Positions 17,401-28,000 of a stretch of 64,000 nucleotides of DNA are shown piece by piece (the first letter of the stretch is position 1; every line of letters starts with the position of its first letter). The notes under the pieces are model-generated. The model did no database searches, was not told where the DNA came from, and saw only the letters and a program-made list of their open reading frames with translations. The stretch spans positions 1,240,001-1,304,000 of the forward strand of contig NZ_CAMTTE010000001.1 in assembly GCF_947077775.1 (NCBI RefSeq). The letters run 5' to 3'. The position numbers and the translations under genes are program-made. This DNA is from Salinibacter pepae. GTDB taxonomy: Bacteria > Bacteroidota > Rhodothermia > Rhodothermales > Salinibacteraceae.

Positions 17401-17486
17401 GCCCGAGTGGCGGAATTGGTAGACGCGCATGGTTGAGGGCCATGTGGCCGTTATAGGCCGTGGAGGTTCGAGTCCTCTCTCGGGCA
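17401..17486 (+). tRNA. tRNA-Leu (GAG anticodon)
   Basis: This class II tRNA of 86 bases has acceptor stem GCCCGAG paired with CTCGGGC and anticodon stem CATGG/CCATG. The loop TTGAGGG gives anticodon GAG. A long variable arm (TGGCCGTTATAGGCCG) and a T-arm GAGGTTCGAGTCCTC follow. Its 3' end lies beside a degraded integrase, and a similar 19-base string occurs about 2.0 kb downstream, so it is the probable attachment site of a decayed element. Confidence 0.95.
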
Positions 17487-17487
17487 C
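17469..17487 (+). repeat. Candidate attachment-site copy within tRNA-Leu 3' end
   Basis: The 19 bases CGAGTCCTCTCTCGGGCAC, covering the T-arm and acceptor end of tRNA-Leu, match 16 of 19 positions of 19486-19504. The last ten bases, TCTCGGGCAC, are identical. Integrases of the tyrosine family often use tRNA 3' ends in this way, and an integrase remnant lies directly beyond. Confidence 0.5.
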
Positions 17488-17502
17488 ACGCAGCGACAGC
17501 TT

Positions 17503-17547
17503 AAACGCCTCTGAGCGCCGTTCATCGGTGATCTCGGAGGCGTTTTT
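17503..17547 (+). terminator. Rho-independent terminator after tRNA-Leu
   Basis: The arms AAACGCCTC and GAGGCGTTT pair perfectly, with a further GAG/CTC pairing inside, and the hairpin runs into TTTTTG. It begins 16 bases beyond the tRNA-Leu discriminator. The reverse strand also reads as a hairpin, so it could additionally stop leftward transcription from the island genes. Confidence 0.85.
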
Positions 17548-17621
17548 GTTTGGGTTCGTCTCCCCGATCTTGCGAGATGCTGAGGGAAATGGCATGAACC
17601 TGAAAACGACTTGGGAATAAT

Positions 17622-17640
17622 TTGGGAACGGCGTTCCCAA
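17622..17640. repeat. Perfect 9-bp inverted repeat at the island left end
   Basis: TTGGGAACG and CGTTCCCAA are exact complements around one central G. A third copy of the half-site (TTGGGAA) lies immediately to the left at 17611-17617. It sits just beyond the 3' end of the integrase remnant and inside the tRNA-proximal end of the element. It could be an integrase arm-type site, a regulator site or a terminator stem; the sequence alone does not decide. Confidence 0.55.
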
Positions 17641-17646
17641 GTGTGG

Positions 17647-17820
17647 CTACGAGCCGAACGGGTCTTCCATCGACCGCTCCCTGCCCCCCGGCGAAAGGTG
17701 ACTGTACTTGTCGGCCATTCGGGTGGTCGTGTGTCCCAATACCTCCGCTACGACTTCCTTCGGGCGCCTTCCATCGTCAGGGGCGAGGCCGTCGAGTGGC
17801 GCAGGCGTCGGAAGCGGGTC
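17647..17820 (-). pseudogene. Tyrosine recombinase (phage-type integrase) C-terminal remnant, frameshifted
   Basis: Only the last part of an integrase catalytic domain survives. One frame reads FRRLRHSTASPLTMEGA, corresponding to the box containing the second catalytic Arg. The next frame continues PKEVVAEVLGHTTTRMADKY and then SHLSPG, which holds the conserved His and the Tyr nucleophile. A single-base indel between the two (around 17765-17775) breaks the frame, and no N-terminal part is found upstream, where an intact small gene ends at 17825. It cannot make an active enzyme. Its position against tRNA-Leu and orientation towards it are typical for an integrated element. Confidence 0.8.
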
Positions 17821-17824
17821 CCGA

Positions 17825-18238
17825 TCATTCCCTCGTGTCATCATCGAGAAAATGGCTGTACGGAATGCGGTACTTGCCCGTCCCCCACGGCGGGGGCTCT
17901 TCTTCCTCCGCCCGGAGGCGGCGGCGTTCCTGGAGCGCCTCCTTCCATCCCTTGAGGCTCTCTGGGCCCTCTGCGGAGGGCGTACCCGAGAGCATACCGC
18001 GCACGGACAGATCTTCGTCCAGCATGGGCCAATGGAGGCCGCGGCCGCGTCCGGTAATCTCGTAAGTCTGCCGTTCCTCGGCGGTCGCAAATGCCAATCG
18101 GGGGTACCATTCGAGAGGCGTCGTCACGCTGCGGCCGTCTTCGAGGTGAACTGTGATCTCGTCTGCGTTGACTTCCGCCTCCACAATCCGGGCAGTGTCG
18201 TGGGAGCTCGTGTCGGGGGCGTGCTTACGAGTAGGCAT
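17825..18238 (-). CDS. DUF2442 domain protein
   Basis: From the ATG at 18238 the product has 137 residues. The segment from about 18 to 90 matches the DUF2442 pattern: ITVHLEDGRSVTTPLEWYPR, then YEITGRGRGLHWPMLDEDLS and VRGML. The remaining 45 residues are charged (EALQERRRLRAEEEE) and probably helical. The function of DUF2442 proteins is not established. The start overlaps the end of the DUF4160 gene by 14 bases, which suggests translational coupling. It belongs to the small tRNA-Leu element. The pairing with DUF4160 resembles two-gene toxin-antitoxin style modules, but that is inference. Confidence 0.85.
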   Translation of the reverse strand: MPTRKHAPDTSSHDTARIVEAEVNADEITVHLEDGRSVTTPLEWYPRLAFATAEERQTYEITGRGRGLHWPMLDEDLSVRGMLSGTPSAEGPESLKGWKEALQERRRLRAEEEEPPPWGTGKYRIPYSHFLDDDTRE

Positions 18239-18503
18239 TCCAGGCGTCGAGAAGGTCTTGTTCGTGGGTTTCGAGAAGGCGCCGGATCTCACGGAGCTCG
18301 TGCCGAGGAAACCCGCCGCCCCGCTCCAGACGCACCGGGTCGACCCAAAATTTCGCCTCGTTGCGGTCCCGCTGAACGTGAACGTGCGGCGGTTCTTGAA
18401 GCCGATCCTGTGCGTAAAAGTGCACCCGATACGGCCCCTCACGAAGAACGGTAGGTACTACGCCGTGGTGGTTGCAGTTTGGGAGGAGTCGTCTCTCGTA
18501 CAC
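18225..18503 (-). CDS. DUF4160 domain protein
   Basis: The product (92 residues from a GTG at 18503) contains the DUF4160 hallmarks. These are VPTVLREGPYRVHFYAQD, then PPHVHVQRDRNEAKFWVDPV, then a C-terminal helix HELREIRRLLETHEQDLLDAW. The core homology begins 15 residues after the GTG, and there is no ATG, GTG or TTG closer to it. The GTG lies eight bases past the stop of the HTH gene. The three small genes therefore look like one tightly packed operon (HTH, DUF4160, DUF2442). The biochemical role of DUF4160 is unknown; neighbourhoods with DUF2442 are its typical setting. Confidence 0.8.
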   Translation of the reverse strand: MYERRLLPNCNHHGVVPTVLREGPYRVHFYAQDRLQEPPHVHVQRDRNEAKFWVDPVRLERGGGFPRHELREIRRLLETHEQDLLDAWNAYS

Positions 18504-18510
18504 ACCGCGC

Positions 18511-18726
18511 TCATTCCGGCTCCGCCTTATCCGAACGCTTCTGTGCCCGGGCCCCTGTGCGGATGGGCTCAAAGTCCTCCCATGCCTCGTCTTTAAGGAG
18601 CATTCGACGGCCACCCACTTCCACGTCGTTCAGTCGCCCATCGTCGGTTGCACGGTAGAGCGTGGTCCGGCTGCATCCAATTTGGCGGGCCGCGTCGCTG
18701 AAACTGATGAGATCGTCGGGGTCCAT
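18511..18726 (-). CDS. Excisionase-like helix-turn-helix DNA-binding protein
   Basis: The 71-residue protein starts MDPDDLISFSDAARQIGCSR and continues TTLYRATDDGRLNDVEVGGR, the winged-helix pattern of the MerR/excisionase (HTH_17) group. It should bind DNA, either as a recombination directionality factor or as the repressor of its own operon. It is the first gene of a three-gene leftward set in the tRNA-Leu element, at the end opposite the integrase remnant, the usual place for an excisionase. The longer open frame upstream adds 79 residues without any domain pattern, so the ATG at 18726 is preferred. Residues 55-71 are a charged tail. Confidence 0.8.
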   Translation of the reverse strand: MDPDDLISFSDAARQIGCSRTTLYRATDDGRLNDVEVGGRRMLLKDEAWEDFEPIRTGARAQKRSDKAEPE

Positions 18727-19485
18727 CGGTCTGGAGGGGCCGTGCACGTCGAACGGAATGGACTCGACACTACACAAAACAGAGTGTTTCGAGAAGTGTG
18801 CAGTCGACGTGTGTGCAACGACGACTCTGGATGCCCTCCAGGTGGTAGAGTCCTCCTTACATTCCGACGGAGCATCAATCGCGCTCTTGTGAGGGAGCGG
18901 GAAGGTGTGCAAAGACGTTTTATTCGACGTGCAATTCCAACGAGCCCCTCCGTCAACGCCCAAATCCGGAGACGTGGCACCGCAGCAGCCGCGTGACTCA
19001 GATGGGACGGCCGTGCGATGGACGTGTCATTCTTCAGCACAGCTCCCTTGGTGAGCAGATGAAAAGAGGCAACTCGGGGTCTCTAAGCACGGGCGAGTGG
19101 CTTCTCTCAGCACGGAAAGACGACTCCGCATCAAAATTCCTCAGGCCAGCCGGACATCTACTTCTGCGTAGTGCTGCCGCCGACGGAGGCAATACTTCTG
19201 ATCGCCCCCCTTGGAGATTCCGCCACCGCCGTCTGGGAGTGAGTGACCCCGAGGATCCGGCCTGAACCGCCTCCCCAGCCACATCAAGATCGCCGAAACG
19301 AAAGTCTCTGAGGCCCCATTTCCCCTCGCCTCAGACTCTCAGGGCTACTGTCAGGGTTGAGTTCCCATACATCCTCTGCGACGGCCCAATCCGTTTTGGC
19401 ACGCAACATCCTATTTCTCCGCTCAACGGCTACGGAGGCCGATATCCCGTCCCCCCTCGGAACTTCTCGGCGGTTGCGTTTACCA
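18727..19485. other. Gene-free right part of the tRNA-Leu element
   Basis: About 760 bases have no convincing gene. Directly upstream of the HTH start there are two copies of GTGTGCA (18796-18830) around a GTCGAC core, which might be an operator of the HTH protein. Beyond that the sequence has more A and T than the flanking chromosome and only short, featureless frames. It is probably decayed element DNA. Confidence 0.4.
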
Positions 19486-19504
19486 CGAATCCCATCTCGG
19501 GCAC
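19486..19504 (+). repeat. Candidate distal attachment-site copy (tRNA-Leu 3'-end-like)
   Basis: CGAATCCCATCTCGGGCAC matches 16 of 19 bases of the tRNA-Leu 3' end, with the last ten identical. It is followed two bases later by a strong terminator hairpin, as a genuine tRNA 3' end would be. This fits a displaced and since diverged original tRNA end that marks the right boundary of a 2.0-kb element. A chance match cannot be fully excluded. Confidence 0.5.
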
Positions 19505-19506
19505 TG

Positions 19507-19539
19507 CCCCCTGGTTGCAGTTTGCAGCCAGGGGGTTTT
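19507..19539 (+). terminator. Strong rho-independent terminator with no gene in front of it
   Basis: CCCCCTGG pairs with CCAGGGGG and, after one mismatch, TGCA pairs with TGCA around a GTT loop. TTTTCCTTT follows. The T-run is on the plus strand only. No rightward gene ends nearby. The simplest reading is the original terminator of the tRNA-Leu transcript, now separated from it by the inserted element. A leader attenuator of the permease gene, which starts 98 bases downstream, is the alternative. Confidence 0.75.
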
Positions 19540-19636
19540 CCTTTGGGGAAAGGACCCAGGGCCACGACGCCCCTGCCGCCTGCCTGTGGCCCCCGGCTCC
19601 CACCCCTGCGTCCCATCGCCCCACCCCGCCTCCCGA

Positions 19637-20977
19637 ATGACCACGCCCGACCGCACGCCCGTCAAAGTGGGCCTCCTAACCGCCGCGTCCCTCGTGGTGG
19701 CCAACATGGTCGGCACCGGCATCTTCACGAGCGTCGGGTTTCAGGTGGAGTACCTGGACTCCCCCTTCGCCCTGCTCATGCTGTGGGCGGTGGGCGGTGG
19801 GATCTCCCTCTGCGGGGCGCTCACGTACGGGGAATTGGGGGCCGCGCTGCCCCGCTCCGGCGGCGAGTACCACCTCATCTCGGAGTTGTACCACCCCGCA
19901 CTCGGCTTCATCGCCGGGTGGATCTCGGCGACCCTCGGCTTTGCGGGGCCCACGGCGCTCGCCGCCATCGCGTTCGGGGACTACACCACCGCCGTCTTCC
20001 CGAGCCTGTCGTCCACGCACCTGGCGGCGGGCATCGTGCTCCTCTGCTCCGCCATCCACGCCACGAGCATCACGTGGGGCAGCTGGTTTCAGAACGCGTT
20101 TACGGCCCTGAAGGTGCTGCTCATCCTCGTCTTCGTGGGCGCGGCCGTTCAGGCCGACCCGACCACTCACAGCATCACGGTCGTCCCGGACGGAGACGCC
20201 CTGAAGGAACTCGTGAGCCCCGGCTTCGCTGTCTCACTCGTGTTCGTGTCGTACGCCTACGCCGGGTGGAACGCCGCCATCTACATCGTCGGGGAGATCC
20301 GGGCCCCGCAGCGCAACCTGCCGCTCTCGCTGGTGCTGGGCACCGCGCTCGTGACGGTCCTTTATGTGCTGCTCAACTTCGTATTCCTGTACACGGTGCC
20401 AGCGCAGGAGATGGCCGGGGAGGTGGAGGTGGGCTTTCTCGCCGGCTCCGTCATTTTCGGGGACGCAGGGGGCGAGGTGATGTCGCTGTTTATCGCCCTG
20501 CTCCTCGTCTCCACCGTAAGCGCCCTCGTCTACCTGGGGCCGCGCGTCACACAGGCAATGGGGGAGGACACCCACGCGCTGCGCTGGCTCGCGGTCACCA
20601 ACGACCGGGGCATTCCCGTCAACTCCATCCTGTTCCAGCTGGGCCTCGCCCTTCTCTTCATCTACACGTCCACCTTCGACCAGGTGCTCGTGTACGCCGG
20701 CTTCACGCTCATCCTGTCGACGATGGTGACGGTCGCCGGGGTGTTCGTCCTCCGCTGGCGCCGGCCCGAGATCGACCGCCCGTACAAAACCTGGGGCTAC
20801 CCGGTGACGCCGCTCCTCTTCCTGGCGGCCAACGCCTGGATCCTCGTGTACGTGTTTCTCGACCGGCCGACCGAGTCGCTGATCGGGCTCAGCATCGTGG
20901 CCGTAGGGGCGGCCCTCTACGTTGCCGGCCAGTGGGGCGCCCCGGACGAGGCCCCGAGGTCCGAACCGACCGCGTAG
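19637..20977 (+). CDS. APC family amino acid permease
   Basis: This is an inner-membrane amino-acid transporter of 446 residues with about 12 hydrophobic helices. Helix 1 carries the APC motif NMVGTGIFTSVGF. Helix 3 has GPTALAAIAFGDY, and helix 6 contains the SYAYAGWNAAIYIVGEI block typical of LAT/YfnA-type carriers. Substrate and coupling ion cannot be assigned. The ATG at 19637 is preferred to a GTG 17 codons upstream, because the extra residues are Pro/His-rich and non-conserved. The gene ends just before a large hairpin shared with the convergent receptor gene. Confidence 0.92.
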   Translation: MTTPDRTPVKVGLLTAASLVVANMVGTGIFTSVGFQVEYLDSPFALLMLWAVGGGISLCGALTYGELGAALPRSGGEYHLISELYHPALGFIAGWISATLGFAGPTALAAIAFGDYTTAVFPSLSSTHLAAGIVLLCSAIHATSITWGSWFQNAFTALKVLLILVFVGAAVQADPTTHSITVVPDGDALKELVSPGFAVSLVFVSYAYAGWNAAIYIVGEIRAPQRNLPLSLVLGTALVTVLYVLLNFVFLYTVPAQEMAGEVEVGFLAGSVIFGDAGGEVMSLFIALLLVSTVSALVYLGPRVTQAMGEDTHALRWLAVTNDRGIPVNSILFQLGLALLFIYTSTFDQVLVYAGFTLILSTMVTVAGVFVLRWRRPEIDRPYKTWGYPVTPLLFLAANAWILVYVFLDRPTESLIGLSIVAVGAALYVAGQWGAPDEAPRSEPTA

Positions 20978-20991
20978 TCCCCCCAACGACG

Positions 20992-21029
20992 GACGGCCCG
21001 CTCCGTCCAGGCGGACGAGGCGGGCCGTC
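20992..21029. terminator. Bidirectional terminator-like hairpin between convergent genes
   Basis: GACGGCCCGC and GCGGGCCGTC are perfect complements, with an inner CGTCC/GGACG pairing. It lies between the convergent permease and TonB-receptor genes, 15 and 25 bases from their stops. Neither side has a long T-run, so its efficiency is uncertain. Confidence 0.6.
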
Positions 21030-21053
21030 GGGATGTCGCCGAGCTCAACGGGA

Positions 21054-23900
21054 CTACAGCTGCACGTTGAGGCGGGCGAAGTAAAAGGCCCCATTGAGCC
21101 CCTGTTGCACCGGCGCGTAGTCGAAGACACCCGCGTACGAGTTGCCGAAGACCTGCTCGTCGGGATAGTTGTTGAACAGGTTGCTGGCGCCGATACTCAC
21201 CGTCGCCGCCTCCGTGAGGTCGTACGAGGCCGTCGCGTCGACCACCCACTCGGGGCTGTGGGTCTGATTCTGCGCGAAGCCGGGCCGCACCTGTTCCCCA
21301 AAGCGCACCGTGCGGACCAGAAGGCCGAACGCGCTGAGTTGATAATCGGCCGAGAGCGTGACCTTCGACTCCGGGTTGCTCTCCGTGAGGAAGCCCTGCT
21401 CCTGCCGGCCAAAGAACGTGCCCTGCAGGTCGTCTCCCTCGTAGTTTGCGCGAACGGTCTCGGGGATGGTCAATGACTGGATTTCGGTGTCGTTGACGTT
21501 GCCGGCGGCCGAGAACTCGACGGTGCCGGTGGGCAGCGGAAGGCGATACGTCGCCACCACGTCAAGGCCGGTCGTCTTGGTGTCCACGGCGTTGGCGAAT
21601 ACCTGCGCGTTCTGTGCCCCCACCTCTGCGAGAAGATTGGAGAGCCCCGAGCTAAACTCTCCCGTCAGCACCACGCGGTCGTCCACGTAGATCTGGTACC
21701 CGTCAATCGTGAGGTCAAGGTTCTCGATGGGGCTGGCCGTGATGCCGGCGCTATAGCTGCGCGACCGCTCCTCTTCGAGTTGCGGAATGCCCAGGACGCG
21801 GGCCACCTCGCTGTCGTTGCTGAAGGTTCCGATGTTCACGAGCTGCCCCTGGTCGTCGAAGTCGGTTCGCACCTCGTTGAAGTAGATTTGGTGGAGGGAC
21901 GGGGCACGGAAGCCCGTGCTCGCCGACCCGCGCAGGTTGAGGCGCCCGTCAAGCAGGCCCCACCGGGCAGCCAGACGCCCATTCAGGGTGCCCCCGAAGT
22001 CGCTGTAGTTCTCGTAGCGGCCGGCGGCCGTCACCAAAAGGGCCTCCGTGAGGTTGACCTCCGTATCGAGGTAGGCCGCCACGTTGCTGCGCGTGCGGTC
22101 CACCTCGTTCTCCGGCCGAAAGCCCACGAAGCCCTGCGTGCCCGGCTCCTTGCCGAGCGTGTCGCGCGTGACCAATCGGGGGCTCGCGGCACTCGTGTCA
22201 TCGATCAGCTGGACGCGGCCGTAGTTGCGGTACGAGGCTTCCTCCCCCGAAAAGATTTGGTACCGGTCGGTCCGGTAGGCTCCCCCAAAGGCCACGTTAA
22301 TGCCCGCCAACGCGTCGTCGAAGAAGCGCGACACATCGAGGTTGGTCACGTTCTGGCTGAAGGCGTGCCCACCGGCGTAGATGCTGGTGGGACTGGCCTG
22401 GAGGAGGGACGCATTGACCGTGTTGTCCATCTGGTAGTCCAGGCTGTTGCGCCCGTAGCTGTTGCTGAGGTCCCAGGTCCATCCTCCAATCGTGCCCTCG
22501 ACGCCGATCGTGAGCGACTGGTCGACCACGTCGGAGTTCATCTCCGGCTGGAAACCATTTGGAAAGAGGGCAGGGTCAGTGTTGGACGCCCGGTATGGCA
22601 TGGCCGAGGTGCTGAATGGAAGCCGCCGGAAGGGGGCCCCAATTCCATTCTTGTAGGAAAGGCCCCCGAAGGCGTAGAGCGTCGCGTCGTTGCCCAGTCC
22701 TACTTCCGAGTTCAGGAAAACGGCCCGTTGCTGGACGGCCGACTGCCCCACTCGGAACTGGAAGTCGGACCGCTCCAGCCCGCGCTGATTCAAGATCTGG
22801 GTATCGATGCGTCGGGCGTTTTGAGCGGCCTCCTCTCCGATGATGCCGGCTACCTGCGGATACGCGAACGGGAAGCCCGACGGGGGCGCAACGCCGTTCG
22901 GAACGTCCGACTGGTCGAAGAGGATGAGCTGATTTCCGTCGGCCCGGTTGGTCCGCGCCCGGTCCCGAAACATGCCCGTGACGTTGACGAAGCCGTCCTC
23001 GCCAACCGCAAAGCCGTAGTTTGCTGACACCTTCACAACCTCCCCATCCCCGGCGTTGCGCAGTCCTGTGGTGACGTCGGCTGTGAGCTGGTTGGTCGCC
23101 TCTTTCATCTGCAGGTTGAGGACCCCGGCGACGGCGTCGGACCCGTACTGGGCCGAGGCGCCGTTGCGCAGCACCTCAACGCGCTGGACGGCCGCCGAGG
23201 GAATGGCGTTCAGGTCTGTCCCCACGGCGCCCCGCCCCACCGTGCCAAGCGTATTGACGAGGGAGCTCTTGTGGCGCCGCTTGCCATTGACGAGCACGAG
23301 CAGCTGGTCGGGCGGCAGGCTCCGGAGGGTTGCCGGGTCAATGAACTCAGTCGCATCGGATGAGGTCTGACGATTCGCCTGGAATGACGGCGCCGTGTAG
23401 GTAAGCAACTGGTTCAGATCCGTCTGTGGCGACTGGGTCGTCAACTCCCCCACCGGCAGCGCGTCGACCGGGACGGCCGACTGGAGGGCCGACCGGCTCT
23501 GGCCCCGGCTTCCGACAACCACCACGTCGTCGAGCGTCGACCCGGGCGTGAGCTCAAAGTCGAACGTGTACGTCTCGCCCGCCTCCACGCGCAGCTGCTC
23601 CGTTTCCGCCGAGTAGCCGACGAAGCTCGCTCGCAGGCGGAGGTCGCCCGGCGCGACCCGGACGCGATACTGCCCGTCGGTGTCGGCGCTGGTGCCCCGC
23701 TGGGTGCCCAGAACCTGCACGTTGGCCCCGGCGAGGGGAGCGCCCGTCTCAGCATCGACCACCCGCCCCTGGACGGTGGCGGAGGACTGCGCCTGTGCCA
23801 TCCCGGGCGATAGGCCCCCCAGGGTCGCACACGCGATTCCCAGTCCCAGCAGCAGTGACCCGAAGGCGGAGAGGCGGCGAGGCGGAGAAAAGGGAAGCAT
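21054..23900 (-). CDS. TonB-dependent outer-membrane receptor
   Basis: This outer-membrane active transporter has 948 residues from the ATG at 23900. A signal peptide ends near AQAQ. A carboxypeptidase-regulatory-like domain follows (about residues 43-120, with GRVVDAETGAPLAGANVQVL and a FVGYSAE strand). The plug domain lies at about 150-290 and includes LPPDQLLVLVNGKRRH and RVEVLRNGASAQYGSDAVAG. The rest is a beta-barrel ending in a hydrophobic strand with aromatic residues (FYFARLNVQL). The regulatory-like N-domain is usual for this phylum. The substrate is unknown; no neighbouring SusD or siderophore gene hints at it. It is convergent with the amino-acid permease and divergent from pcm. 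Confidence 0.94.
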   Translation of the reverse strand: MLPFSPPRRLSAFGSLLLGLGIACATLGGLSPGMAQAQSSATVQGRVVDAETGAPLAGANVQVLGTQRGTSADTDGQYRVRVAPGDLRLRASFVGYSAETEQLRVEAGETYTFDFELTPGSTLDDVVVVGSRGQSRSALQSAVPVDALPVGELTTQSPQTDLNQLLTYTAPSFQANRQTSSDATEFIDPATLRSLPPDQLLVLVNGKRRHKSSLVNTLGTVGRGAVGTDLNAIPSAAVQRVEVLRNGASAQYGSDAVAGVLNLQMKEATNQLTADVTTGLRNAGDGEVVKVSANYGFAVGEDGFVNVTGMFRDRARTNRADGNQLILFDQSDVPNGVAPPSGFPFAYPQVAGIIGEEAAQNARRIDTQILNQRGLERSDFQFRVGQSAVQQRAVFLNSEVGLGNDATLYAFGGLSYKNGIGAPFRRLPFSTSAMPYRASNTDPALFPNGFQPEMNSDVVDQSLTIGVEGTIGGWTWDLSNSYGRNSLDYQMDNTVNASLLQASPTSIYAGGHAFSQNVTNLDVSRFFDDALAGINVAFGGAYRTDRYQIFSGEEASYRNYGRVQLIDDTSAASPRLVTRDTLGKEPGTQGFVGFRPENEVDRTRSNVAAYLDTEVNLTEALLVTAAGRYENYSDFGGTLNGRLAARWGLLDGRLNLRGSASTGFRAPSLHQIYFNEVRTDFDDQGQLVNIGTFSNDSEVARVLGIPQLEEERSRSYSAGITASPIENLDLTIDGYQIYVDDRVVLTGEFSSGLSNLLAEVGAQNAQVFANAVDTKTTGLDVVATYRLPLPTGTVEFSAAGNVNDTEIQSLTIPETVRANYEGDDLQGTFFGRQEQGFLTESNPESKVTLSADYQLSAFGLLVRTVRFGEQVRPGFAQNQTHSPEWVVDATASYDLTEAATVSIGASNLFNNYPDEQVFGNSYAGVFDYAPVQQGLNGAFYFARLNVQL

Positions 23901-24068
23901 AGCGTACTCGCGACGTCGGTGTGTAAAAGTGTGACGCCCCCAATTAAGGCACCGCTTCAAAGAGATGCTGTGGAAATCCTGTAGAGAGCCGGCTTGCATG
24001 CCCCTTGAACGCCCGCCTGGGACGATCCGTTAGTCATTGTTCACACTCCGCCACGTCCAGCCCCCATC

Positions 24069-24758
24069 ATGCTCGGCGCTCTCCTCGCCCTTCTCGTCGT
24101 CGCGCCCCCGCCCGATACCTCGTGGCCTCATCAAGACCTACGCGAGCGCATGGTCCAACAACAGATTGCCGCCCGGGGCCTCACCGATCCGGCGGTGCGC
24201 GGCGCCCTGCGCTCCGTGCCGCGCCACCGGTTCGTGCCTGAGGTGTCTCCGGAGCTCGCCTACGCGGATCGTCCGCTCCCCATCGGCCACGACCAGACCA
24301 TCTCCCAGCCCTACATCGTGGCCCGGATGACGGCGCTCGTCCGGCCGGATTCGGCGGACCGCGTCCTGGAGGTGGGAACCGGCTCGGGCTATCAGGCCGC
24401 CGTGCTGGCCTCGATCGTGGATTCGGTCTACACCATCGAAATCATTCCCGACCTGGCCGCCAGCGCCACCGAGCGCCTCCGTCGCCTTGGCTACGACAAC
24501 GTCCTCGTCCGGAACGGGGATGGCTTTGACGGGTGGCCGGCCCGCGCGCCATTCGACGCCATCGTGGTGACGGCGGCCCCCGACGCGATCCCGCCGCCCC
24601 TCCTCGACCAGCTCGCGGAGGGCGGACGCATGATCGTGCCGGTGGGCCCGGCGGGCGGCACCCAGGACCTCACCCTCGTCACGAACGACGACGGCAAACT
24701 CACGAGACGGACGCTCGCGCCCGTCCGGTTCGTGCCCTTCCTCCGCCCCGAGCCCTGA
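24069..24758 (+). CDS. pcm: Protein-L-isoaspartate O-methyltransferase, apparently exported
   Basis: Pcm methylates isoaspartyl residues of damaged proteins with S-adenosylmethionine and so starts their repair. The 229-residue protein has RHRFVPEVSPELAYADRPLP and IGHDQTISQPYIVARM, the Pcm signature. The SAM motif VLEVGTGSGYQAAVLA and a late APFDAIVVTAAP block are also present. The N-terminus MLGALLALLVVAPPPDTS is hydrophobic and resembles a short signal peptide, which is uncommon for a SAM-dependent enzyme. An internal start after this segment (MVQQQIAARG) would give a shorter protein close to the usual E. coli length. The gene ends within a perfect hairpin. Confidence 0.92.
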   Translation: MLGALLALLVVAPPPDTSWPHQDLRERMVQQQIAARGLTDPAVRGALRSVPRHRFVPEVSPELAYADRPLPIGHDQTISQPYIVARMTALVRPDSADRVLEVGTGSGYQAAVLASIVDSVYTIEIIPDLAASATERLRRLGYDNVLVRNGDGFDGWPARAPFDAIVVTAAPDAIPPPLLDQLAEGGRMIVPVGPAGGTQDLTLVTNDDGKLTRRTLAPVRFVPFLRPEP

Positions 24759-24775
24759 TGCAGATCAGGGCTCGG
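24748..24775 (+). terminator. Hairpin overlapping the pcm stop codon
   Basis: CCGAGCCCTGAT and ATCAGGGCTCGG form a perfect 12-pair stem with loop GCAG. The pcm TGA lies in the left arm. No T-run follows, so it may act as an mRNA 3'-end stabiliser or a weak terminator. Confidence 0.6.
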
Positions 24776-25042
24776 TCTCCTCCCTTCCTGCTCCGCGAGC
24801 CGACCCTCCTCCTTTTCCTCCACACGTCTCCGTCGCTTTTCGTTGGCGCCCGCATCACCTATCTTGGATGCGCTCTCCCTTGCAGATTCTTATCGCCTCT
24901 GTATGCGCCGCTCCGTTGCCGCCGCGCTCCTCCTCGCCGCCCTCGGCCTGGAGCCCGCGACGGGCACGTCCGAGTAGTGGGTGCGTCGTCGTTCCTCGCC
25001 GCACACTCCGTTTTCGCACTCTTCTCCTTACGCCCAGGCCCC

Positions 25043-28000
25043 GTGCCCTCCCGCCCCGCCGACTGGCCCGACCTCAACCCCGACCAGCGGGCCGCCGTGA
25101 CGGCGTCGATGGATCCGCAGCTCGTGGTGGCCGGGCCGGGGACCGGCAAGACGCGCGTCCTCGTGTGCCGGGCCGCCCACCTCATCGAGCACGAGGCCGT
25201 GACGCCGTCCCGCCTCGTCCTGGTCACCTTCACGCGGCGCGCCGCGCAGCAGCTCACCCGTCGACTCGCCACCCTCGTGGGCCCGGAGGCGCAGCACGTC
25301 CGGGCGGGCACCATTCACCACTTCTGCTACAAAACCCTCCGCGCCCATTCGGCCCCGGCGGGCGTGCCCGACGACTTCATCGTGGTCGACGACACGGTGA
25401 CCGACGCCTTCTGGCAGCGCTGGCACGAGGCGCACGAGCGCTGGTGCGAGGCAAACGACCTCCACAGCTACCGCCAGGTCAAGACCCACGTCAGCCGCAT
25501 CAAGCTCGGGATCGACACGGTGTCGGGGCGGCTCACCGAAGGCCTGCGGGCCTACGGCGAGATGCTCGCGGACCGGGGCGCGCTCGACTTTGACGACCTG
25601 CTCGTCAAGACGCGCGACCTGCTGCGCAATCACCCGGACGTGCGGGCCGACCTCGTGGACGAGACGCGGGCGGTCCTCGTCGATGAATTTCAGGACACCG
25701 ACCCGGTGCAGTTCGACATCATCCGCCGCCTCGGCGAGGCGGGCACCCACCTCTACTGCGTGGCCGACGACGACCAGTCCGTCTACCGCTTCCGCGGGGC
25801 GCGGCCCGCCAACCTGCGGCGCTACATCGAGCGCTTCGACTGCTCCGAGGAGCGGGGCACGCGGCACGTCCTTACCACCAACTACCGCTCCAACCGCTCG
25901 ATCTACGCGGTGGCCGAGGCGGTGCTCGACGCCGACGAGCGCCTCAAACAGCGCGGCGACATTCGCACGTCGGACGCCAGTACACAGCCGGTCCGGCTGG
26001 TCGCCTGCGACGACCCCGAGGCCGAGCGGACCCACGTGCTCCGGCAACTGCGCGACTGGCTGGACGAGGGGGCCGAGCGGAGCGACCTGGCGGTCCTGAC
26101 CCGCTGGAACCGCCGCCTCGCGGCCCTGGAACGGGCGTGCCTCCGGGCCGGCCTCGCCTGCGAGACGAGTCAGAGCGAGGCGCTCCTGGACACCCCTCCG
26201 GCGCAGAAGCTGCATGCCCTGCTCCGCGTCGTCGATGCCCGCCGTCGCGGCCGGCCGCTCGACGCCCCCATGACGGAGCTGCTGTCCCACCTGCTGCCGG
26301 ACGACACGATGGCCCGGCTGCGCGACTTCGGCGAGCGGAGCATGCCGGACGCGACCCTCTGGACGGCCTTCCAGACCGCCGTCTCCAACGAGCAGGCCCG
26401 CCGCAGCGCCGGCCTCGACTCGGCCACGGACCGCCTCGACCAGGCCTACGCCACGATCACCAACCTCCTGCAGAGCACGCAGGAGGACGGCCTCACCATC
26501 GGTGCCTTTACCCGCACTGCCCTTCGGCAGCTCGGGGATCCCCTCCAGCTGCTCCGCCGCTACGCCGCCCCCCTGGCCGATCCGGCCTCTCATCCGTCCG
26601 TCCGCCAGGCCGGCACGGTCCTCGACGAGTGGCGCCGGGCCCCGGCCCGCACATCGCGGGCCGGGGACCCACCCCGCCTTCTCCTACACCACCGCACGCC
26701 CCAGATCACGCGGCTCTGGCGGCAGCTGGTGCGGCGGGCCCTCGACCTCGAAACGGATCCCCCCGCGCCGCTGCCCGAAATGCAGGAGGCCCTCTTCGCC
26801 CGCCCCGCCGACGAGGGCATTCCCCCGCTCGGGGCCGACGACGTGGTCCTCACAAACGACCTGGAGGCCCTCCTCCGCTGGGCCGAGCGGACCGGGGCCT
26901 TTTCGGGATCGACCGATACGCCCCAGATCCTCCTGCTCGCGCCCGACGGCGCCCTGCCGTCCGGCCAGAAGACGCTGCTCGGCGTCGACCCGGACAACGT
27001 GCACGTCGTGGATCCGGGGTCCACCTTCCATAGCCCCTCGGTCCGGCTGGTCAAGCTTCTGCAGATGACCAGCGGCCCGTCCGCCCCCGAGCCGCTCTTT
27101 CCGGAGTACGTGATGGTCGACCTCGAGGCCACGAGCACCGACCCGCGCCACTGCCGCGTCGCCGAAATTGGGGCGCTCAAGGTGCGAGACGGAACCGTGG
27201 TGGACCGCTTCTCCGAACTGGTGCAGTTGCCCGAGGACCTGACGGCCGACGAACGCGAGACGCTCCGCACAGTGTGCGGCCTCGATCCGGCGTCGGACTT
27301 CGACGAGGCCCGGCCTGAGGCGGCGGTCTGGGCCGACTTCTGTGCCTTCGTGGACGGGGCGCCCCTCGTCGCCCACAACGGCCAGCGCTACGACTTCCGC
27401 GTCCTGCGCCGCCTCGCCGAGACGCACGACGCCGAGGCGCGCTGGGCCGCGACCTACGACCTGCTGCCCGCGGCGCACGAGCTGTTTCCCGACCTCCGCC
27501 GCTACGACGCCGCCCACCTTCGCGAGACGCTCCTCGACGACCCGACGGACACTGCCCATCGCGCCCTGGCCGACTGCGAAGATCAGCAGCGCATCCTGGC
27601 GCGCATGCAGGAGGAGCGCGCCCGCCAGCGTCGCGTGCTGGCCCACGAGCCGCTCCTGCCGCTCCTCGTGGCCGCCCTCACCTACGAATCCCCCGCCCCC
27701 GAGGCGCTGTCGGACGACGCCCGGGTCTTTTTGCAGGTGGGGCACACGTGGGCCCTGCGTGACGCCTCCCCCGCCGGCGACGACCTGCGCTCGCTCCTGC
27801 CCCGCGCCCTGCCGGATCGCCTCCGCCAGCACGCGCTCTACGCGCTGATCGACGAGGACGCCCTGCTCACGGCTTCGGCCGGCCTCCAGCCCGGCCTCGC
27901 CCGCCGCCTGGCGGCCCTCTTCGCACCCTACGCCGACCGCCCGCTCCGGAGCGAGGCGCTGGCGGACCTGCTTGCGCACCTCGCGCTCTGGGGCGAAGAG

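Follow-up and report, generated by a model that had tools for sequence, protein, structure and literature searches.

We found that positions 17488-19504 of the window, a 64,000-nt stretch of Salinibacter pepae (Salinibacteraceae; NZ_CAMTTE010000001.1, positions 1,240,001-1,304,000 of the forward strand), are a 2017-bp insertion at the 3' end of tRNA-Leu(GAG), with both boundaries placed at base level. This insertion is probably what was left when two tRNA-Leu elements, arrayed in tandem, collapsed. That elements accrete and decay at tRNA genes is already known; this scar is unusually well bounded. Read as two elements, it displays at base level how integrative elements that stack at one site dwindle to a hybrid remnant, in a group whose elements have been little studied.

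We compared the site with 12 other genomes of the genus (G001-G012), none of them from the window's species. G000 denotes the window's own genome, relatives carry the other G numbers, C marks a contig and L a locus. We call the small element type that the window's left part resembles the S type and the other island type the L type.

Empty sites and attachment cores

The target gene, tRNA-Leu(GAG), is intact at 17401-17487 on the plus strand (ARAGORN, Rfam tRNA). We observed empty sites in 3/12 genomes (G003, G004 and G007), where the tRNA is followed immediately by the same hairpin and then by an amino acid permease gene, the arrangement that a first-pass annotation of this DNA had predicted for relatives lacking the insertion. 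The tRNA of the empty sites was 100% identical to that of the window, and identity of the permease DNA was 91, 88 and 87% (G003, G004 and G007). In the window this native neighbour lies at 19586-20977 on the plus strand (PF13520, E 6.4e-58; these coordinates are of the longest frame, and the true start may lie further in). At the empty sites, matches to the window's tRNA and to the sequence from 19486 onwards overlap by exactly 19 bases. Because the sites in G003, G004 and G007 are empty, 17488-19504 is an insertion, and the earlier reading of it as integrated at the tRNA 3' end, with these boundaries, was correct.

Other sequence stands behind the tRNA in 7/12 genomes (G001, G002, G006, G008, G009, G010 and G012). 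A contig end cuts the site in G005, and G011 gave no near-identical full-length match among the matches listed. The distance from tRNA to permease gene is ~15.5 kb in G009 and ~103 kb in G001, and the site has therefore been used repeatedly.

The proximal attachment core TCTCGGGCAC occupies 17478-17487 (plus strand) and also ends the tRNA in the empty sites. Its distal counterpart at 19495-19504 (plus strand) is an exact ten-base copy of the tRNA end. Over the longer segment 19486-19504 there are 16/19 identities to the tRNA 3' end, the last ten exact, as first reported. The tRNA itself aside, this is the only match of at least 16/19 in the window with both strands searched, and it was equalled by 3 of 1000 dinucleotide shuffles of 17641-19700; the match is real and better than all but those three. 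The claim that the distal copy is the old tRNA end stood for the core, which the native terminator follows, but not for the three mismatched bases. Decay of the old tRNA end was rejected as their source: CACGAATCCCATCTCGGGCAC is present in all four right-end copies (the window, G012 C59, G012 C90 and G001 C3), with differing bases beyond it. Since CACGAATCCCATCTCGGGCAC is common to three islands in two other genomes, the mismatches are element sequence, and the crossover therefore lay within the last ten bases, TCTCGGGCAC. A mismatching distal attachment copy need not mean decay.

Directly behind the distal core, the native tRNA-Leu terminator hairpin has been displaced by ~2 kb to 19506-19536 (plus strand; pattern scan and folding). 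It lies directly behind the tRNA in G003, G004 and G007, which confirms the first-pass view of it as the displaced terminator. The segment 19505-19545 folds at -28 kcal/mol (z -5.85).

The site thus has two features of a tRNA-targeted tyrosine-recombinase island, namely a relative that is empty, its flanks meeting at the core, and a tRNA 3' end shifted to the distal boundary (the ten-base core, then the native terminator). There is no intact integrase inside, only a 55-residue tail in two frames, and the insertion is therefore a remnant and not an element.

The left part resembles S-type elements

The broken integrase end and three leftward genes reported just beyond the tRNA are present. The S-type end motif TTGGGAATAATTTGGGAAC, a possible integrase arm site, lies at 17611-17629 (plus strand). 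It recurs nearly unchanged just past the L-type right cores of G012 C90 and C59, in C59 adjoining an integrase piece, and was not found in G009 C7 or C3. The tyrosine integrase tail follows at 17650-17813 (minus strand). It spans ~55 residues, with the frame broken near 17763; tblastn with the integrase of G012 C59 matched it, as 38 residues in one frame and 17 in another, to residues 322-376 of that 376-residue protein. The tail alone gave no Pfam match. S-kind integrases are found in 10/13 genus genomes (E 1e-30 or better, with identities down to 34%).

Three minus-strand genes follow. A DUF2442 gene (DhiA-type antitoxin) occupies 17825-18238, a 137-residue open frame (PF10387, E 1.7e-18), and a DUF4160 gene (DhiT-type toxin) occupies 18225-18458 (PF13711, E 5.8e-20). 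The small helix-turn-helix (HTH) gene at 18511-18726 may be excisionase-like, judging by its position; its HTH_17 match (E 0.00091) is below the Pfam cut-off, and its relatives come from seven loci, two pairs of which overlap. Among the frames tested across the 2 kb, we observed no family match besides DUF2442, DUF4160 and HTH_17. The toxin gene has GTA where its relatives have ATG, and an in-frame GTG lies 45 bases upstream at 18503.

The left part is 77% identical to G009 C7 over 978 columns, covering the DUF2442, DUF4160 and HTH genes. Relative to G009 C7, dN/dS was 0.105 for the toxin, 0.144 for the antitoxin (118 codons) and 0.082 for the HTH gene. As estimated from these alignments, the ratios indicate past purifying selection on the genes since the split from G009 C7 and say nothing about the time after the collapse. 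The G009 C7 element is 7.8 kb long with cores at 103428 and 111202, and has a different right end and an integrase without its middle.

The hairpin module at the left end is nearest to the sequences at the same tRNA in G006 (94%, 175 bp) and G002 (90%, 151 bp), tRNA included. Further into the interiors of these two we found no match to the window; left ends are therefore mosaic too.

At locus L034 of G009 C7 we also observed a 182-bp scar (1255-1436) that has a terminator of its own and lies between a tRNA-Leu and the core that comes next. Its right end is that of the neighbouring 7.8-kb element, and it is an even smaller collapsed remnant.

The right end is of the L type

Blastn similarity to G009 C7 ends at 18813. 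The stretch that follows, 18814-19332, had been described as gene-poor. In blastn and six-frame tblastn searches of the loci gathered, it had no convincing relative and no firm origin. At E 1, blastn gave a single match, of 29 bp, which pairs 18909-18937 with internal sequence of the G012 C90 island (E 6.7e-4), and six-frame tblastn matches were weak (best E 0.016). The proposed fusion point of the two elements would lie within this stretch.

The last 172 bp, 19333-19504 on the plus strand, are an L-type right end, matching G012 C59 at 90% over 172 bp, G012 C90 at 87% over 170 bp and G001 C3 at 74% over 169 bp. This right end was found in 3/27 genomes of the family, the window's included. An exact 23-base right-end pattern occurred at two places in genome contigs, both in Salinivenus iranica CB7 and both corresponding to the G012 C90 and C59 positions, and an exact 27-base pattern had 0 matches in viral contigs. 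In a distant blastn of 17401-19700 against a plasmid collection, each of the matches listed (20 of 49 records) covered 4% of the query, at the tRNA end.

The L-type end motif CTGTCAGGGTT lies at 19348-19358 (plus strand). Each of the three L-island stretches holds no more than two exact copies, one towards either end: the left copies lie 116, 116 and 254 bp past the left core, and the right ones 156, 168 and 156 bp ahead of the right core's end. The whole window has a single exact copy, in the right end, 156 bp before the core end. The motif was chosen by eye after the sequences had been viewed, so its count is no independent test. Words with one mismatch to it are found elsewhere as well in 2/3 stretches (two in G001 C3 and two in G012 C59). 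Of the 13 genus genomes, G001 and G012 alone gave a match to the 495-residue L-type integrase of the G012 C90 island; the window's genome gave none.

Further features were seen in the three contigs with this right end. In G001 C3, ~83 kb at 29827-112432 (L076-L080) separate tRNA-Leu(GAG) from the L-type right end, and an integrase frame of 500 residues lies close to the tRNA. Close to its right end, the L island in G012 C90 (L072, 1969-5704) has QueC-like, nucleoside deoxyribosyltransferase/PfkB-like and Schlafen AlbA_2 genes, possibly defence or nucleotide-modification cargo. G012 C59 holds a 9.9-kb stretch between two cores (L031, 9384-19312) with L-type motifs at both ends; it carries an RND efflux pump, a CusB/HlyD-like adaptor and a sensor kinase, gave no Pfam integrase match, and is a candidate trans-mobilised metal-efflux island.

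Origin of the scar

We propose that an L-type island integrated first, by means of a tyrosine recombinase, with the crossover inside the ten bases that end tRNA-Leu(GAG), TCTCGGGCAC. The tRNA would thereby have been restored, and its terminator and the permease gene shifted to the far side of the island. An S-type element would then have entered the rebuilt tRNA end, between the tRNA and the L island, bringing its own terminator, a tRNA-facing integrase gene, the DUF4160/DUF2442 pair and the HTH gene. A later deletion would have fused the S interior to the L right end, and the integrase would have been cut down to its last ~55 codons. The order of arrival is suggested by the layout: the S part adjoins the tRNA and the L part adjoins the native terminator, so that the L island would have come first. 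In G012 C90 and C59 a single core joins an L-type end to an S-type end, with S beyond L, so such tandem arrays do exist.

Several observations count against two elements. Each of the G001 and G012 C90 islands (~83 and ~52 kb) may comprise more than one element, in which case its left and right arms could come from different ones. The one-mismatch words resembling CTGTCAGGGTT, the absence of TTGGGAATAATTTGGGAAC from G009 C7 and C3, the left-end module being nearest to G006 and G002, and the exact fusion point not having been found weigh in the same direction.

The first-pass annotation had described one decayed element, which would have to be an S type that had acquired its right arm by exchange with an L-type island prior to integrating here. 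The insertion has just two cores, as one element would leave, and a left-end module that is itself mosaic among relatives would fit such a history. We nevertheless consider a single element unlikely because the left part matches one element type and the right part another. Of the three S-type elements that carry an integrase and whose two ends we located (G009 C7, G009 C3 and G012 C59-A), none has the L-type right end, and the CTGTCAGGGTT arm stands on both sides in 3/3 L-type islands.

It is far less probable that the scar is a small, still mobile, non-autonomous 2-kb element that an integrase encoded at another place in the genome mobilises in trans. In its favour, the two cores are exact, other integrases exist in the genome (the one closest to the S type, at G000 C1:629651-630757, is 46% identical), and the core-bounded stretch at 17983-27911 of G012 C59, with its L-type motifs and no Pfam integrase match, offers a parallel. 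However, no second copy of the right end was found in the window's genome, or in genomes of the family beyond G012 and G001; no 2-kb unit is common to any of the 59 relatives searched; and the genome is without an L-type integrase. An ordinary spacer with a chance likeness to the tRNA end has next to no probability. The three shuffles that reached 16/19 would by that number alone leave some chance, but the three empty sites and the occurrence of the same right end at other cores refute it. The collapse of two elements is our best explanation.

Relation to known systems

Salinibacter ruber has been reported to carry islands flanked by tRNAs or recombinases (PMC6060240, PMC2800850, in the parts available), and our literature search found no paper joining Salinibacter, integrative elements and tRNA-Leu. 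The available part of a review of accreted tandem genomic islands and cis-mobilizable elements (CIMEs) describes decay to remnants bounded by attachment sites (PMC5704250). Like the cases treated there, the scar shares an attachment site by a tRNA gene, has kept its attachment sites but lost recombination genes, and would belong with tandem related or unrelated elements. Unlike them, its outer ends apparently come from different elements with no core between, and we do not claim conjugative ancestry. The defining features of a CIME are attachment sites kept after loss of integration and transfer genes, which the two cores and the integrase tail show, and attachment sites that both derive from one former ICE or IME; the ends here match different element types. 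With ends of different types and no claim of conjugative ancestry, we did not class the scar as a CIME.

As in the tRNA islands of the Islander resource, going by the available text of PMC4383910, a rebuilt tRNA stands at one end and a displaced 3' fragment at the other. Unlike those islands, the scar has only an integrase tail and a ten-base block, with element-derived bases before it.

The accessible portion of PMC8198452 describes DUF4160/DUF2442 as dhiTA, a type II toxin-antitoxin system functional in Dickeya and E. coli, and that of PMC12724237 a Thermus plasmid DUF4160/DUF2442 pair that raised plasmid persistence. The defining arrangement, adjacent DUF4160 and DUF2442 genes with the toxin first, is found here, and as in the Dickeya and Thermus modules of those texts the two overlap slightly. 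Unlike the pairs presented there, ours is adjacent to an integrase in both the scar and G009 C7, has lost the toxin's usual start, and is known from sequence. A composite island maintained by a HipAB pair is also on record (PMC8978831, available part). In the past the DhiTA pair may have helped the scar to persist; a present role is doubtful because the toxin's usual start codon has been lost.

Terminators behind tRNA-Leu

An element-borne terminator hairpin at 17503-17545 (plus strand), seen by folding and absent from the first-pass annotation, replaces the displaced one and is unlike the native hairpin of the empty sites. The segment 17488-17552 folds at -31.2 kcal/mol (z -4.59). This hairpin was absent from the list of the terminator pattern scan, which returned 4 sites where shuffles averaged 1.9.

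Eleven selected sequences behind tRNA-Leu ends, the window's among them, folded with z from -2.39 to -6.04. We also surveyed 60 nt behind tRNA-Leu ends, with shuffles of single bases and not of dinucleotides, and each of the 29 distinct sequences from all loci gathered folded at -20.2 kcal/mol or lower. At least four T within an 8-base stretch were present in 28/29; the remaining sequence (L036) ends at 60 nt. The native empty-site type accounted for 3/29, and not all of the others are proven insertions. Whether such elements supply the terminator that they displace can now be tested on these recurring foreign hairpins.

As the available text of PMC13023037 describes, int is expressed from the tRNA promoter in ICEKp1 and other ICEs, whose integration displaces the tRNA terminator. 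Like ICEKp1 in that account, integration here moved the tRNA terminator to the element's far end. Unlike it, the integrase of the scar faces the tRNA, and a foreign terminator stands directly behind the tRNA. This convergent layout looks opposite to that of ICEKp1-like ICEs, and read-through into int from the tRNA promoter would not be expected. Tentatively, we suggest that tRNA-Leu elements of Salinibacteraceae might in general carry a strong terminator of their own directly behind the core and an integrase facing the tRNA, which would leave the tRNA with a terminator and insulate int from the tRNA promoter. Because the ten-base core is common but the ends are not, such elements might stack and collapse into hybrid scars, with toxin-antitoxin pairs perhaps slowing their loss.

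In another genus of the family (G013 C1, L011), two tRNA-Leu ends lie ~1.3 kb apart, each with a closely similar hairpin, and the same stacking may occur there.
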